Origin: Nitrospinae bacterium RIFCSPLOWO2_12_FULL_45_22
GTDB lineage: Bacteria; 2-12-FULL-45-22
Reading direction: 5' to 3'
Length of the DNA: 14,270 bases
Assembly: GCA_001803565.1 (NCBI GenBank)
Contig: MHDQ01000021.1
Span: forward strand, 1 to 14,270
Part shown: positions 3,080 through 9,515 of the stretch, in pieces
Layout of the letters: the number at the start of each line of letters is the position of its first letter
Position numbering within the stretch: position 1 is the first letter of the stretch
The notes under the pieces: generated by a model
What the model saw: only the letters and a program-made list of their open reading frames with translations
Told to the model about the DNA's origin: nothing
Databases searched by the model: none
Translations under genes and position numbers: made by a program

Positions 3080-3151
3080 AAATAAAAAGTAAATGTTTAG
3101 CCAAAATAAGATGGAACACAAAATTAAAAGGGTTCCAGTGGCCAAGGGGTC

Positions 3152-4456: not shown

Positions 4457-4491
4457 TGTTTTCCTCCTCCCATTAACATTCCATCAAATCA

Positions 4492-4633
4492 TTCAGCCTA
4501 CAGTCAGCTTTCAGCTAAATCAATAGTGAGGCATAAGGAGTAAGTGGGTAAGGGGTAAGAAAAATTTCTCCTCATGCCTTACCCCTGAGGCCTTACGATA
4601 AGTTTTACTGACCGCTGACAACTGACGGCTGAA
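4492..4633. repeat. Nested palindromic repeat C
   Basis: The outer arms carry ttcagcc (4492-4498) matched by ggctgaa (4627-4633), and gtcagc (4503-4508) matched by gctgac (4614-4619). They enclose a different inner palindrome made of gtgagg/gtaagg-type repeats, whose 9-bp core aggggtaag (4551-4559) pairs with cttacccct (4578-4586). The element separates two divergent genes and lies between the acyl-CoA dehydrogenase start and the promoter of the small winged-helix gene. A related gtgagg/gtaagg block is nested inside the different outer arms of repeat D. Confidence 0.65.
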
Positions 4634-4768
4634 CGCTTACCAAAATTTAAACCCTTTTCCTGAACCCGGTTAACTGTTACAACTAATTGCTTCATTCTTT
4701 GCGTCTTTACAATTATAAATAATGCTTGATAAAAATTAAACCTACATAGTTCGGGATAAACATTTTAA
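4634..4768. other. AT-rich spacer without a gene
   Basis: This stretch between repeat C and the small gene's promoter region is AT-rich. No convincing ORF or RNA gene is visible. On the minus strand, TATAAT (4712-4717) with a weak TTTAAT 17 bases upstream could be a promoter for the acyl-CoA dehydrogenase at 3302-4456. In that case its leader would run through repeat C. This is a weak suggestion. Confidence 0.3.
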
Positions 4769-4810
4769 GGATAAATATTCTTTTTTGTTGACAATAATAA
4801 TTATTTATCC
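4769..4810. promoter_or_regulatory. Candidate operator: 9-bp inverted repeat across the promoter
   Basis: ggataaata (4769-4777) and its exact reverse complement tatttatcc (4802-4810) flank the -35 box. The right half fills the second half of the spacer, up to the -10 box. The half-site centres are 33 bases apart, about three helical turns, so both would face the same side of the DNA. A third, partial copy (gggataaac) lies at 4752-4760. A regulator bound here would block RNA polymerase. Self-regulation by the downstream winged-helix-like protein is a guess. Confidence 0.45.
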
Positions 4811-4816
4811 TATTAT
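4788..4816 (+). promoter_or_regulatory. Near-consensus sigma70 promoter of the small winged-helix gene
   Basis: TTGACA (4788-4793), a 17-base spacer and TATTAT (4811-4816) give a perfect -35 box, an ideal spacing and a 5/6 -10 box. Transcription should start near 4823, about 23 bases before the ATG at 4846. It is one of the two clearest promoters in the window. Confidence 0.8.
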
Positions 4817-4845
4817 CGGTTATCAGGCCAAAGAAGGGAGTAGAA

Positions 4846-5154
4846 ATGGATAAAGAGAAGCTGAAGTTATTAAAAGAAGTCCATTCCCGAGAAGAATTCT
4901 TAACATTACCCTTAGAGGCTGCAAAGCTCTACCTTGTATTACTCATTACATCTGAAGGGCCTGAAAAAGAAGGGAAGATATCCTTCAAGACCATTAAAAA
5001 GGCCCTGGGGCATCACTTCCAGGTAAATCGCCTGGAGAAGGCCCTCTCTGCTTTATCTGATCGGGGATTGATCCAACTCCAACACCCCTTCTCGAAAATA
5101 TCTACTGATCATCTTTCCCCTGACCTCCAGCTCTATTATAAGATAATAAGATAA
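4846..5154 (+). CDS. Small winged-helix-like protein of unknown function
   Basis: A 102-residue, charged, soluble protein. I do not recognise the family. The middle looks like a winged helix-turn-helix: a leucine-rich helix (LEAAKLYLVLLIT, about 23-35), a short strand and helix (ISFKTIKKALG, about 45-55), then a likely recognition helix with a following strand (VNRLEKALSALSDRGLIQLQ, about 60-79). The SDRGLIQL ending is typical of the step from recognition helix to wing. The ATG has a ribosome site (aagggag, 5 bases upstream) and a near-consensus promoter, so the gene is real and probably well expressed. A 9-bp inverted repeat across its promoter would suit autoregulation. The next gene lies 200 bases downstream, beyond repeat D, so it may be transcribed alone. 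Confidence 0.75.
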   Translation: MDKEKLKLLKEVHSREEFLTLPLEAAKLYLVLLITSEGPEKEGKISFKTIKKALGHHFQVNRLEKALSALSDRGLIQLQHPFSKISTDHLSPDLQLYYKIIR

Positions 5155-5207
5155 AAGACCTTCCTTTGCCTACCAGGTAGTGATAAACTTTCTCTTCAAT
5201 ATGGATA

Positions 5208-5320
5208 TTCACCACAAAGATCACAGGGGGCGCAGGGCATACATAGTGAGGGGTGAGGAGTAAGGGGTGAGGAGTGAGGGAGTTATCGCCTTACGGCTTT
5301 TTGTGTGCTCGGCGGTGAAA
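5208..5320. repeat. Nested palindromic repeat D with a 14-bp tandem core
   Basis: The outer arms are ttcacc followed by a degenerate acaaagatcacag stretch (from 5208), and the matching ...gtgctcggcggtgaa at the right (to 5319), imperfectly inverted. Inside is a G-rich purine block with two adjacent 14-bp copies, gggtgaggagtaag (5251-5264) and gggtgaggagtgag (5265-5278), 13/14 identical. The gtaagg at 5260-5265 is answered by ccttac at 5289-5294. The gtgagg/gtaagg vocabulary is shared with the core of repeat C, though the outer arms differ. It lies just before the AmgK-like gene. Confidence 0.55.
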
Positions 5321-5354
5321 TGAAAGATCCTGTTTTCAGGACAAAGAAAAGACA

Positions 5355-6407
5355 TTGAATATACCAGAAGAGTTGTTAGGAAGGGTATTAGAGGGTAAGA
5401 AGCCTTGCCCGGAGCTCCCCTTCACTATTACCCCTTTAGCGGGTGATGCCTCAGACCGACAATATTTCCGAATAAATTGGGAGAGGCCAGGACCCCAATC
5501 TATAGTCCTCATGAAACTGGCCCAGAGGCCCAGTCCACCCGAACTCCCTTTTATCCAGATACAGGAACATCTCTGCGCTATAGGAGTACCAGTGCCGGAG
5601 CTCTATAGTTACTCACCCGAGCTCGGGATAGTGCTATTAGAAGACCTGGGGGGGATTACCCTCGAGAACAAGGTCAAGGATAGTTTGATGAGTGAGGAAG
5701 AGATAAAGGCCCTCTATCTTGAGGCGATAGATATCCTTTTGCAGATGCAGATCCAGGGTAGCCGTCCGGGGCGAGATAATTGTCCGGCCTTCCAGTTGGA
5801 ATTTGATGTAGCTAAATTCATGTATGAATTGAATTTCTTCAGGCAATATATGATCGAGGGTTTCCTAAACAAGAGGATAGCCCGGCAGGATCAGGCTATT
5901 CTGGAGGAGGAATTTTCCCGGCTCTGTCAGATATTGGCCCAAGAAAAGAAATATTTCACCCACCGGGATTACCATAGCCGGAACATCATGGTGCGGGAAC
6001 AAGGATTGTGGGTGCTCGATTTTCAGGATGCCCGTCTGGGCCTCTGCCAATATGATCTGGCCTCGCTGTTGCGGGACTCTTATGTGACCCTGCCTGAGGG
6101 GCTAGTGGAGGAATTGCTGGAATATTACCTGGTAACTAAAGAGATTTTAAAAGGGCAAAAGATAACAGCCAGGACGGAATTTAGGCGGCTTTTTGACTTT
6201 ACGGCAGTGCAGAGAAACTTGAAGGCTCTCGGTACCTTTGCCTTCCAGAAAGTGGAAAAAGGGAAAGATACTTACCTTCCTTATATTGCGCCAACCTTAG
6301 CGTATGTCTGGCAAAACCTGGATAAATACCCTTTTTTTAATACCCTAAAGAAAGTCCTCAAAAAGTACCTTGATAGCCCAGGAATTTCCCAACCGCAAAG
6401 GCGCTAA
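5355..6407 (+). CDS. AmgK-like aminoglycoside phosphotransferase-fold sugar kinase (COG3178)
   Basis: A 350-residue kinase-fold protein. LAGDASDRQYFRI (28-40) is the nucleotide-loop signature of the COG3178/AmgK group. LLEDLG (94-99) is the hinge. HRDYHSRN (203-210) is the catalytic loop, with Asp205 as the likely base, and LDFQDAR (221-227) is the metal-binding loop, with Asp222. AmgK phosphorylates the anomeric carbon of N-acetylmuramate and N-acetylglucosamine in cell-wall recycling, normally followed by the uridylyltransferase MurU; no murU-like gene is in view. The start is a TTG: an in-frame stop at 5316-5318 blocks extension and the first ATG is too far in (residue 53). Only a weak, distant agga precedes it. 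The last few codons and the stop lie in a repeat (6392-6417), so the C-terminal tail is probably not ancestral. The family call is strong; the substrate is inferred. Confidence 0.88.
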   Translation: MNIPEELLGRVLEGKKPCPELPFTITPLAGDASDRQYFRINWERPGPQSIVLMKLAQRPSPPELPFIQIQEHLCAIGVPVPELYSYSPELGIVLLEDLGGITLENKVKDSLMSEEEIKALYLEAIDILLQMQIQGSRPGRDNCPAFQLEFDVAKFMYELNFFRQYMIEGFLNKRIARQDQAILEEEFSRLCQILAQEKKYFTHRDYHSRNIMVREQGLWVLDFQDARLGLCQYDLASLLRDSYVTLPEGLVEELLEYYLVTKEILKGQKITARTEFRRLFDFTAVQRNLKALGTFAFQKVEKGKDTYLPYIAPTLAYVWQNLDKYPFFNTLKKVLKKYLDSPGISQPQRR

Positions 6408-6417
6408 GATTGCAAAG
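6392..6417. repeat. Short repeat module overlapping the end of the AmgK-like gene
   Basis: The sequence accgcaaaggcgctaagatt plus gcaaag belongs to the same style of module as those in repeats B and D (accacaaaga..., ccaccaagacactaag...). It contains the TAA stop (6405-6407) and the last four codons of the upstream kinase. The rest of the convergent spacer to 6490 shows no clear terminator hairpin. Confidence 0.5.
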
Positions 6418-6490
6418 ATTTCATAAGAAGAGGATTCGAGAATTATTTGCTATCTGAAGGTATCTAAGAGAATCTGTGTCCTAATTGGTT

Positions 6491-7768
6491 TTATCTGGTT
6501 TCTAGCACATTAAAGTAGTTTCTGATCTGACCCTTTATCTGTTCTTCAGACATGATCTTGGGGTCGCAGGCATCAATATCTACAATGACTGAAGATATAC
6601 CTGCCTTTTCCATGATGGCATCGGTTACTATTCGATTGAAGCCACAGGTCTGCTTGCAACCAAAATGGGCAAAAAATACTGATGAGTCGCACTGGAACTC
6701 TGCAGCCATCTTACCCAGGTCGTCGGCAAAGATATAAGAAGGGCCACCTAATCGGGCCAGGCAGGGATACACACTCAGGATTTTTCGGGCATAGGTTTCC
6801 AAAGGGTTGCTGGATATCTCATCAATATTACCAATAACACCTACCAGGGCATTAAAAAAATCAACTACGGCTACGGCACCAAACTCCTCCTCCATCCAAT
6901 CCAGTATCTTCATATTCCAGAAGGGGTATACACCGCTCATGACCACCCGGTGCCTCTCTTCTGGAACTACCCCTATCCCGGCTTCCATATTTTCTTTGCA
7001 TTCTTCATATTGGGCCCGCATAAAATCTACTACTATCGGGAGCCCCTCGCTGCACATCCGGATACCAAAATTGGCAAAGGCATCCTTGGCCCCCATAACC
7101 GTTGGGATAGCCCCACGCAGGGCTTGGGTCTTAATAAAATAGTCCTGGATAATGATATCCCGTTCCAGAAATTCTCTCAGTTTGGCCTCACTATATTTAG
7201 CGCCAGTATGTTTCTCGATAAAAAGGATCATCTCTTCCAACCCCGCTACGAGGTGTTTCATAGCTTCCTCGTCCTCGCGGAAGGGTAGATTAAGCCAAAA
7301 CGAGGGGCAATGGTAAATGTGTTCTATATTCTCGGCCATGATAGCCGAGGAGTCGCATGGTATCTGGCCGGTATAGAGCAACAGGTCTGGTCTAGGGAAG
7401 ATATCCTCTAAGGCCAGACCAATACAGGCCTTATGAGGGGAGCAGGCCTCTTTACTGAAGCCAAACCCCTCCCCGATATCCATAAACTCATAGCCTAAGC
7501 CAAAAGAGAGCATCTGAATAGTGTATTGCTCAAAGGCAAAGACCGGAATATCCATAGATAAGAGGATTTCAGGTGGGAAGAGGATGCTTATCATGGCCAG
7601 GGGCCGGCCCTCTTCTTTGGCCCTCAAGGCATTTCTTAAATAGTCAACCATAGCTTGAGAGAAGATAATCTTACTCTGTTCCTTGCCATACTTTATCTGC
7701 TTCTCTAATCTCCCTTCAAACAAGTCTAGCGCAGATTCTAGCCGCAGTTTATCTCCTAATTTAGGCAT
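6491..7768 (-). CDS. 2-hydroxyacyl-CoA dehydratase / benzoyl-CoA reductase family iron-sulfur protein (HGD-D)
   Basis: A 425-residue protein of the HgdB/BcrC-type family. These proteins hold a [4Fe-4S] cluster and take part in ATP-driven radical or low-potential reductions of CoA thioesters. Typical features are LFPPEILLSMDIPVF (63-77), a first cysteine region C109-x5-C115 (EACSPHKAC), then PDLLLYTGQIPCDSS with C138, and HFGCKQTCGFN with C371 and C375 near the C-terminus. There are 11 cysteines in all, also C154, C239, C257, C336, C360 and C401, more than a single cluster needs. Known dehydratases and reductases use two such subunits plus an ASKHA-type ATPase activator. Neither a partner nor an activator is present. 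It follows an acyl-CoA dehydrogenase in one operon, with its ribosome site inside the end of that gene. It could be a homodimeric double-cubane-type protein, an orphan dehydratase subunit, or something new; the reaction is not established. Confidence 0.88.
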   Translation of the reverse strand: MPKLGDKLRLESALDLFEGRLEKQIKYGKEQSKIIFSQAMVDYLRNALRAKEEGRPLAMISILFPPEILLSMDIPVFAFEQYTIQMLSFGLGYEFMDIGEGFGFSKEACSPHKACIGLALEDIFPRPDLLLYTGQIPCDSSAIMAENIEHIYHCPSFWLNLPFREDEEAMKHLVAGLEEMILFIEKHTGAKYSEAKLREFLERDIIIQDYFIKTQALRGAIPTVMGAKDAFANFGIRMCSEGLPIVVDFMRAQYEECKENMEAGIGVVPEERHRVVMSGVYPFWNMKILDWMEEEFGAVAVVDFFNALVGVIGNIDEISSNPLETYARKILSVYPCLARLGGPSYIFADDLGKMAAEFQCDSSVFFAHFGCKQTCGFNRIVTDAIMEKAGISSVIVDIDACDPKIMSEEQIKGQIRNYFNVLETR

Positions 7769-7770
7769 CT

Positions 7771-8916
7771 CTAACGACCTCCTTTAACACCCAGGATATG
7801 ATCAGCTATTATTATCCGCTGAATCTGGCTGGTACCTTCGAATATCTGAGTAAGTTTAGCATCCCGCATCATCCTCTCTACAGGATGGTCCTTCATATAG
7901 CCATATCCACCCAGGATTTGCACAGCATCAGTAGTTACCCGCATAGCCATATCAGAACAGTAACACTTGGCCATAGAGGCATAAAACCGGGCATCCTTTT
8001 CTTTTCTATCCACTTTCTTTGCGGCCGTATAGATAAGACCTTTACCGGCATTAATCTTCATAGCCATATCGGCCAGCATAAACCTGATGGCCTGAAATTC
8101 TGCTATAGGACGTCCGAACTGATACCGCTCGCGGGCATAGTTAGCCGCATATTCCATAGCCCCCGCTGCTATTCCTAAGGCCATAGTCCCTACAAAGACC
8201 CTTAGGGCCTCAAAGGCCTGCATAACTATAATAAACCCTTCTCCCTCAGGGCCTACCCGATTTCCCTGGGGAATCTTCACATCTTCAAAGATAAGCTCTG
8301 CCGTGGGGTAGCCTTTAAAACCCATCTTCTTTTCGATCTTCCCTACCGAGAACCCGGGGGTATCTTTTTCTAAGATAAAGGCCGAGATACCTTTGGCGCC
8401 CTTTTCCGGGCTGGTAATAGCCCAGACAAAGTATATATCTGCGATATTGCCATTACTAATAAAGCATTTCCGGCCATTCAAAATATAATGGTCTCTATCC
8501 AGGACTGCCCTGGATTTAATCGAGGCAGCATCAGAGCCGGCTTCAGTCTCTGTTAAGGCCAGGGCCACTACCTTGCCCTCAGCAATTTGGGGGAGATACT
8601 TTTTCCGCTGGGTCTCATTACCATGGGCAAGGAAGAGAGGGCCACTCCCTTGAATGGCTATCAAGGCAGAAACGGCGGCAGATGCCTTAGCTATCTCCTC
8701 TATGACCAGGGTAGTGGTCAATGCATCGCTGCCGCCCCCGCCCCATTCTTCGGGGATTAATAAAGTAACCAATCCCTGCTTGTGAAGAAGACGGAATATA
8801 TCCCAGGGAAACTCATCCTTTTCATCAATCTCAGCCGCTCTAGGGGCTATCTGCTCTTCCACTAGCCTTTTCACGGTCTTTAGCAAAAGCTGTTGTTCCT
8901 CAGTAAGCTCTATCAT
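7771..8916 (-). CDS. Acyl-CoA dehydrogenase (second copy), first main gene of the HGD-D operon
   Basis: A 381-residue, full-length acyl-CoA dehydrogenase, clearly diverged from the copy at 3302-4456. The middle domain has [12 protein letters not shown] (121-132) and FISNG (152-156). The C-terminal domain has [12 protein letters not shown] (264-275), LGGYGY (335-340) and [17 protein letters not shown] (351-367). E360 matches the MCAD-type catalytic glutamate and R239 the conserved arginine. The ATG at 8916 has a gaggggat ribosome site and overlaps the stop of a 14-codon leader ORF by ATGA. The downstream HGD-D gene is coupled to it, so the two products may act on the same or successive CoA thioesters. 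The substrate is unknown, and no ETF genes lie nearby. Confidence 0.93.
7777..7785 (-). promoter_or_regulatory. Ribosome site of the HGD-D gene inside the upstream gene
   Basis: On the minus strand aaaggaggt lies within the last codons of the acyl-CoA dehydrogenase (Gly-Gly-Arg-stop), 8 bases before the ATG at 7768. It is a near-perfect Shine-Dalgarno sequence. With a gap of only two bases between the stop codon and the ATG, it indicates translational coupling of the two genes. Confidence 0.85.
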
Positions 8917-8957
8917 TGTCTTATCCCCTCGTGATCGCTTCCTAACCGTTCACCCAT
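8913..8957 (-). CDS. Possible 14-codon leader ORF upstream of the acyl-CoA dehydrogenase
   Basis: On the minus strand an ATG at 8957 opens a short frame, [14 protein letters not shown], whose TGA overlaps the dehydrogenase ATG as ATGA. A gaggggat ribosome site stands a few bases upstream. That site and its surroundings are a near-copy of the ribosome site of the dehydrogenase (8958-8973 against 8921-8936, 15 of 16 identical). Codons 2-5 form one arm of a 10-bp hairpin. The peptide has no run of a single amino acid, as a classical attenuator would. It could instead arise by chance from a local duplication. Confidence 0.4.
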
Positions 8958-8985
8958 TTATCCCCTCGAGATCCAGTGAACGGTT
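8944..8985 (-). promoter_or_regulatory. Leader hairpin before the acyl-CoA dehydrogenase / HGD-D operon
   Basis: aaccgttcac (8944-8953) and gtgaacggtt (8976-8985) are exact reverse complements, giving a 10-bp perfect stem with a 22-base loop. The loop contains the ribosome site and start codon of the 14-codon leader ORF. The structure lies between the operon promoter and the dehydrogenase start, so it could control translation, or as DNA serve as an operator. No T run follows, so it is not an ordinary terminator. Confidence 0.55.
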
Positions 8986-9046
8986 GCATCGCTTCTAATC
9001 TATAAAACCCATCCTTTTTAACTCTATCATATAGATTTTTCACCAT

Positions 9047-9075
9047 ATTCTACCAATTGTTAGATAAGCCGTCAA
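9047..9075 (-). promoter_or_regulatory. Sigma70 promoter of the acyl-CoA dehydrogenase / HGD-D operon
   Basis: On the minus strand TTGACG (9075-9070), a 17-base spacer and TAGAAT (9052-9047) match the sigma70 consensus at 5/6 in each box. Transcription would start near 9040, giving a leader of about 124 bases. That leader includes the hairpin at 8944-8985 and the short leader ORF. Confidence 0.65.
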
Positions 9076-9186
9076 CTAAATTCCCTCATTATTGCAAAGC
9101 AGGGCTAATTTCTCTATAATTAAAAATTTGATGGGCAGGATGATATAGCTTACATTCGAGAGGTTTTGATTCTCAATTCGTAACTG
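9076..9186. other. AT-rich spacer without a visible gene
   Basis: Between the minus-strand promoter and repeat B the sequence is AT-rich, with no ORF, tRNA or clear hairpin that I can support. Together with repeat B and the leader region it makes up the 599-base divergent gap between the dehydrogenase operon and plsC. Confidence 0.4.
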
Positions 9187-9453
9187 GTTTAGCCAAAATT
9201 AGGATTTTAACCACGGATGAACACAGATAGACGTAGATTAGGCCACCAAGACACTAAGTCACTAAAGAAACGTAAAACGCAAAGCTAAAAGTGCAAAGCT
9301 GAGGAATAATTACCTTAATTTTACACTTTGTATTTTAAGCTTTGAGTTTCTTGGTGTCTTTGAGCCTTAGTGGCAAGGAAAGGTTAGCTAGGTGATCCGT
9401 GTTCATCTGTGTCTATCCGTGACAAATCTTCGGGATACTTTATTTGGCTAAAC
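9187..9453. repeat. Composite palindromic repeat B with 11-bp terminal inverted repeats
   Basis: This 267-bp block starts with gtttagccaaa (9187-9197) and ends with tttggctaaac (9443-9453), identical to the ends of repeat A. Inside, at least three layers are nested. The first is cacggat...acacagat arms (from 9212), whose 27-base left arm matches the inverted right arm ending at 9423 at about 20 positions. The second is gccaccaagacactaag-type arms (from 9242), answered by cttggtgtctttgag...ttagtggc (to 9374). The third is a core with aaagct/agcttt (9281-9286 and 9338-9343). No protein-coding potential is seen. It sits in the divergent spacer before plsC. Confidence 0.7.
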
Positions 9454-9471
9454 TGTTGCTTCAACTATAAT
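9444..9471 (+). promoter_or_regulatory. Possible plsC operon promoter overlapping the end of repeat B
   Basis: A perfect TATAAT (9466-9471) lies 16 bases after TTGGCT (9444-9449), a 3/6 -35 box formed by the right terminal repeat of element B. An 8-bp inverted pair, aactataa (9463-9470) and ttatagtt (9492-9499), spans the -10 box and the likely start region. The -10 box is good and the -35 weak, so an activator or another promoter may be involved. Confidence 0.4.
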
Positions 9472-9515
9472 AAAAACCTCTTGAATGTCAGTTATAGTTA
9501 CAAGGATAAGTGTAG

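Follow-up and report, generated by a model that had tools for sequence, protein, structure and literature searches.

The intergenic DNA of this locus holds inverted repeats that enclose other, different inverted repeats, and a preliminary description had proposed that such composites grow by repeated insertion near the centres of earlier palindromes, such as hairpin loops. What are these modules, and do they really favour palindrome centres? The window, that is, the whole stretch of 14,270 nucleotides that was analysed, corresponds to contig C21 in a metagenome bin that is incomplete (3.67 Mb, 321 contigs), and its nested repeats are all intergenic.

Module families and layered elements

A genome-wide census covered 141 stretches (1.71 Mb, 47% of the bin), about 55 of which were picked for containing matches, which biases absolute densities upward. 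Across these stretches, the dispersed repeats fall into a few word families, most of them with arms built from 7-10-bp quasi-tandem repeats:

Family T: GTAAnnGTTYA ends, the outer layer
Family S: word TCAGCnn
Family K: words CACnAAGn and CACAGAGn
Family H: word ACGGATGAAC
Family A: words GCAAAGC/TAAAAGT
Family G: word GTRAGGn
Family W: word GGTTATTn
Family C: word CTAAATC
Family E: word GAATACAg

Written as bracket strings, the sampled stretches are properly nested (e.g. T-K-A-E-e-a-k-t, T-H-K-A-a-k-h-t and T-S-G-g-s-t), with up to four layers in the census, as in the first of these strings, and five in element D of the window. Of 306 strong hairpins tested in the genome-wide sample, 41 lie within a second hairpin, whereas the threshold applied predicts about 1.5. 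The modules also mix freely, as had been described from the window: the ends of outer module O4 enclose A (L108), K-A (the window and L127) or another hairpin (L073), inner module G occurs in S, K, A and H contexts, and the order can be reversed: K can enclose W, and W can enclose T-K or a CACGAA hairpin. These varied combinations and orders support accumulation by repeated insertion, and because outer and inner roles mix and reverse, the alternative that all composites are copies of one ancestral unit with the same layer order does not apply. Many composites are nevertheless copies of one another (e.g. the T-K-A group), so that the number of composites cannot be read as a number of events, and inner modules that recur with high identity at many places have been copied as units.

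The window contains the following features:

3089-3102: lone IS66-MITE-like end, GTAAATGTTTAGCC, an inverted match to the end of element D
4485-4640: element B, a MITE with IS66-type ends belonging to subfamily GTAAGCGTTCAGC(nnTCAGC)n, aligned by eye to copies with a confirmed target-site duplication (TSD); the right end, GGCTGAACGCTTAC, is intact and the left one, CAAATCATTCAGCC, is decayed
4526-4597: module G inside B, inverted GTAAGGn heptads, from the sequence
4650-4680: truncated right end of another IS66-type MITE subfamily (CTTTTCCTGAACCCGGTTAACTGTTAC), by eye against L074:6792-7019 and L147:3057-3200
5208-5319: element C, decayed K-around-G composite (TTCACCACAAAG ... CGGCGGTGAA), with homologues in L060, L094 and L105
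8942-8987: empty IS66-type MITE of 46 bp with nothing inside, perfect 8-bp TSD ATCGCTTC at 8934-8941 and 8988-8995
9144-9496: layer Y, outermost inverted repeat of element D, arms 9144-9171 / 9469-9496, 86% complementary
9180-9459: layer T of D, arms 9180-9194 / 9443-9459, IS66-type MITE ends GTAACTGGTTTAGCC / TTTGGCTAAACTGTTGC
9210-9424: layer H of D, arms 9210-9239 / 9393-9424, ACGGATGAACACAGAT-type with a 10-bp period
9242-9400: layer K of D (arms 9242-9266 / 9349-9374) with subterminal sequence, positions 12-170 of an O1-type IS66 MITE (173 bp)
9270-9345: layer A of D, innermost, CGTAAAACGCAAAGC-type hairpin with a 7-bp period

The nested inverted repeats reported at 4492-4633 and 9187-9453 are borne out by their arms and by DNA folding. 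In element B, outer arms of TCAGCnn heptads (4492-4515 / 4608-4640) enclose inner GTAAGG-type arms (4526-4559 / 4570-4597), and the DNA folds at -25 kcal/mol, compared with -15.0 (sd 3.0) for shuffles (z -3.35). There are 43 places in the genome resembling B, the TSD-confirmed comparison copies including L124:13198-13343 and L073:8803-8949, while the TSD of the window copy is no longer recognisable. GTAAGGn-type runs occur at 26 places in the sample and at none in the reversed-sequence control. The whole B element as query gave no match in 59 diverse genomes, and neither B nor K-type runs were found in the one other genome of the same phylum that was searched.

For element D, where at least three layers had been claimed, we count five (Y, T, H, K and A), and none of 100 shuffles folds as well (z -8.06). 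A sister copy, L127:8375-8641, is 91% identical and has a perfect TSD, CTTTATAC; in the window copy the TSD is not recognisable (5 of 8 positions). The K-A layer matches the TSD-confirmed element L083:11740-11912 by BLAST, at 89% over 133 nt in one orientation and at 70% over 161 nt in the other, reaching position 170 of 173. By this alignment, the K-A layer of D is an O1-type MITE inside an O4-type MITE, with its left 11 bp gone. One arm of Y and its flank are shared with L110:4128 on another contig, and the Y arm, ACATTCGAGAGGTTTT, occurs as single copies at several other places. A CRISPR array with repeat GTTTCAATCCCGTATAAATCCGGTCTAGTCTTCCTAC adjoins a D-like composite in L121 (about 9080-9450).

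The nesting described at 5208-5320 stands in part. Element C retains little of the right arm of its GTAAGG block, and its DNA folds no better than shuffles (z -0.18), but near-complete K-around-G layouts are found at L060:7219-7339, L094:7720-7815 and L105:3149-3244, and judged by these homologues C is such a composite despite its weak fold.

IS66-type ends and target duplications

In this genome, GTAAnnGTTYA end pairs are flanked by 8-bp direct repeats in 31 perfect cases and 11 with one mismatch, whereas perfect duplications of 5-7 and 9-14 bp number at most one at each length. At TCAGC-subfamily loci of other genomes, 33 perfect duplications were found at 8 bp, against 0-3 at other lengths. 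The 42 elements with such ends in this genome measure 46-341 bp and carry no transposase gene; empty forms with a TSD measure 46 and 48 bp. The family was checked on annotated IS66-family transposase genes of plasmids, which were inspected for ends and duplications. Five of the six plasmid elements, from Methylotuvimicrobium, Nostoc, Thiodictyon, Geobacillus (ISGst1) and Calothrix, have GTAAnnGTTYA-type ends (GTAATCGTTTAGCC, GTAACCGTTCACAGG, GTAACCGTTTAGCC, GTAACTATTCAGCC and GTAGTCGTTCACAGG, respectively) and a perfect 8-bp duplication. The genome under study has one IS66 transposase gene (PF03050 + zf-IS66), at C275:12150-13467 with its left end; the gene starts about 135 bp inside an upstream end, GTAACCGTTCACCC, that is identical to the MITE end, and the right end and TSD of this element are lost at an assembly gap. 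An IS66 fragment in L309 is decayed.

The ends, the 8-bp duplication and the site choice of these IS66-family MITEs are directly observed, and we infer that the elements are mobilised in trans by an IS66 transposase. We consider it highly probable that the outer layers are IS66-family MITEs and that the nesting arose by insertion of MITEs into MITEs, together with co-amplification and slippage. In the literature collection that was searched, no earlier description came up for nested palindromes of this kind, for the module sequences or for IS66 MITEs.

A second MITE family, TGCTTCATTTCATAAA ... ATTATGGATTAGAGCA, of 119-196 bp and almost always with CTWAG on both sides, was seen at L055:7241-7359, L107:5770-5948, L120:4243-4438 and L134:3220-3378 and 7909-8067. 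At L097:5674-5916, L106:2447-2650 and L077:10555-10666, palindromes GTCATTCTGAGC / GTCATTCCGA, which we take to be of a kind present in many genomes, make up the inside of IS66-type MITEs whose duplication is confirmed.

Of 290 sampled genomes, counting this one, 10 contain exact K-type runs and 9 contain exact G-type runs, and local amplification can be strong (85 K runs in one genome); such a patchy distribution with local amplification fits mobile elements. Hosts of the TCAGC subfamily include Deltaproteobacteria, Methylomirabilota, Chloroflexota, Cyanobacteria (Okeania), Acidobacteria, Planctomycetes and others.

Growth of the layers and modules without transposon ends

Short non-autonomous elements with IS66 TIRs (GTAAnnGTTYAsC...) would be moved by an IS66 transposase, and they insert into AT-rich DNA with an 8-bp duplication, disregarding palindromes. 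Each carries long imperfect inverted arms built from 7-10-bp repeats, and these elements in turn receive other MITEs and small palindromes. An insert lying between the two ends would travel with the element when it next transposes, but an insert that disrupts an end would not; because end-breaking inserts would stop the spread, the elements that multiply would be those holding a palindrome near the middle. Inner MITEs, whose ends are then dispensable, would lose them, giving layers in varying order, and such loss is seen in the K-A layer of D. The arm repeats would grow and shrink by slippage; at L255:1878-2086, in another genome, one arm of an IS66-type MITE is expanded to about 12 copies of TAGCTGA.

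Among the 41 nestings, taken regardless of family and not independent as events, symmetry holds to within 8 nt in 22, and 11 lie off centre by more than 20 nt. By a rough, uncomputed estimate, even insertion would place about one fifth within 8 nt if about 15 outer pairs must survive. A central tendency thus remains when all hairpins are pooled, but other causes also fit it. The carriage argument covers the symmetrical nestings only for layers within intact-ended elements; the tendency may come from the same end-integrity filter, if the elements concerned once had outer ends that later decayed, or it may reflect a genuine process at hairpin tips.

Modules A, G and W show no transposon ends. 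Stand-alone K hairpins show no TSD signal above shuffled pairs. Of 50 K hairpin ends outside confirmed MITEs, 11 agree with the end motif at 6 or more of its 8 positions precisely where a T end should lie, compared with 0-3 at any other offset; as these carry the T end in place, part of the K class consists of decayed MITEs. It is conceivable, though rather unlikely in our judgement, that hairpin tips are where a distinct kind of periodic repeat, comprising the end-less modules A, G and W and some of K, inserts or originates, for example through template switching by a polymerase at a stalled hairpin, and that IS66 MITEs do no more than spread the products.

A rival explanation by replication slippage and template switching, in which a polymerase halted at the tip of one hairpin switches to a second one and copies it, so that arms and inner modules would form without a transposase, would account for the quasi-tandem arms of most modules, for the heptad expansion in L255 and for the lack of transposon ends on A, G and W. 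We find it distinctly unlikely, as the outer layers carry transposon ends and 8-bp duplications and the inner modules, recurring at high identity, were copied as units.

Palindrome centres and known systems

Preferential entry of modules into hairpin loops, as the preliminary description suggested, where the target would be the unpaired tip of a hairpin or cruciform already present, can be confronted with pre-insertion sites rebuilt from the 8-bp duplication of IS66-type elements. One of 42 MITE insertions in this genome and one of 44 in other genomes (2 of 86 in total) lie at a palindrome centre, close to the 0.8% of nearby control points; for the 42 sites of this genome the median palindrome score is 4.5, compared with 4.0 for nearby points, and the duplicated target sites are 69% A+T. 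The single central case among the 42, L066:3011, lies exactly at the centre of a W hairpin. It speaks for tip entry together with the position of element D at the centre of palindrome Y, the W module around a CACGAA hairpin in L089 and the symmetrical share of the nestings; the nestings far off centre speak against it. Palindromes of 19-28 nt with exact ends, CCTGYCTG...CAGRCAGG, lie in a scored hairpin in one of 32 copies. Six more were seen by eye in A modules, whose imperfect arms cause the palindrome score to miss them, and at least three of the six are copies of one event. An automatic comparison of filled and empty paralogues was excluded from the statistics as noisy and biased to centres, since it needs 18 matching bases on each side. 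Readable insertion sites give hairpin-tip targeting no support, and we regard a preference for loops as quite improbable. Comparison of L113:271-579 with L139 shows that an element of 156 bp, with ends TGCATATGCACTTG, has entered a W hairpin along its arm and not at its tip.

Movement as REP/REPIN-type elements by RAYT (Y1) transposases is very improbable: the genome has five Y1_Tnp matches, and of three Y1 genes that were examined two have small hairpins nearby that are GTAG-tagged or related (TAGTGGCAGGTC.., CAAGGCTAAAGCC..), but none of the main modules lies near those three genes, and the outer elements carry 8-bp duplications and IS66 ends. The small GTAG-tagged or CTTTAGCC hairpins that adjoin Y1 (RAYT-like) genes, at L095:2005-2032 and L143:2159-2306, are a separate repeat class that also occurs inside some MITEs. 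It is extremely improbable that these are ordinary repeats selected as terminators or RNA structures and nested by chance, an idea that would suit their intergenic position in the window and the strong folds of B and D, but not the dispersed near-identical copies with target duplications or the fold of C.

Unrelated environmental genomes carry dispersed periodic palindromes of the CACAGAG, TCAGC and GTAAGG kinds. For many of these otherwise unexplained intergenic hairpins, IS66 ends with an exact 8-bp duplication allow annotation as mobile elements that have a named transposase, and their readable insertion sites offer a test of the way in which layered repeats build up.

According to Elhai and co-workers, the small dispersed repeats of cyanobacteria are reportedly very small palindromes inserted in other repeats; by description, not by sequence, these are comparable to the 19-28-nt CCTGYCTG...CAGRCAGG elements, and they are unlike the outer layers found here. 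REP/REPIN elements with RAYT (PMC3733652, PMC3116915) are likewise palindromic, intergenic and multicopy, and small GTAG-tagged hairpins of that kind are also present in this genome, whereas its main modules have no GTAG tag and have an 8-bp TSD and the ends of an IS66, not a tyrosine, transposase. Single-gene IS66-family elements (PF03050 + zf-IS66, e.g. ISGst1) share the GTAAnnGTTYA TIRs and the 8-bp duplication; the elements described here differ in their small size, in having no transposase gene and in an interior of nested periodic hairpins. With bacterial MITEs they have in common that they are short, non-autonomous and dispersed in intergenic DNA, with TIRs and TSDs, but as many as four or five palindromic layers are nested in them, in an order that varies, and their arms are made of periodic words of 7-10 bp.
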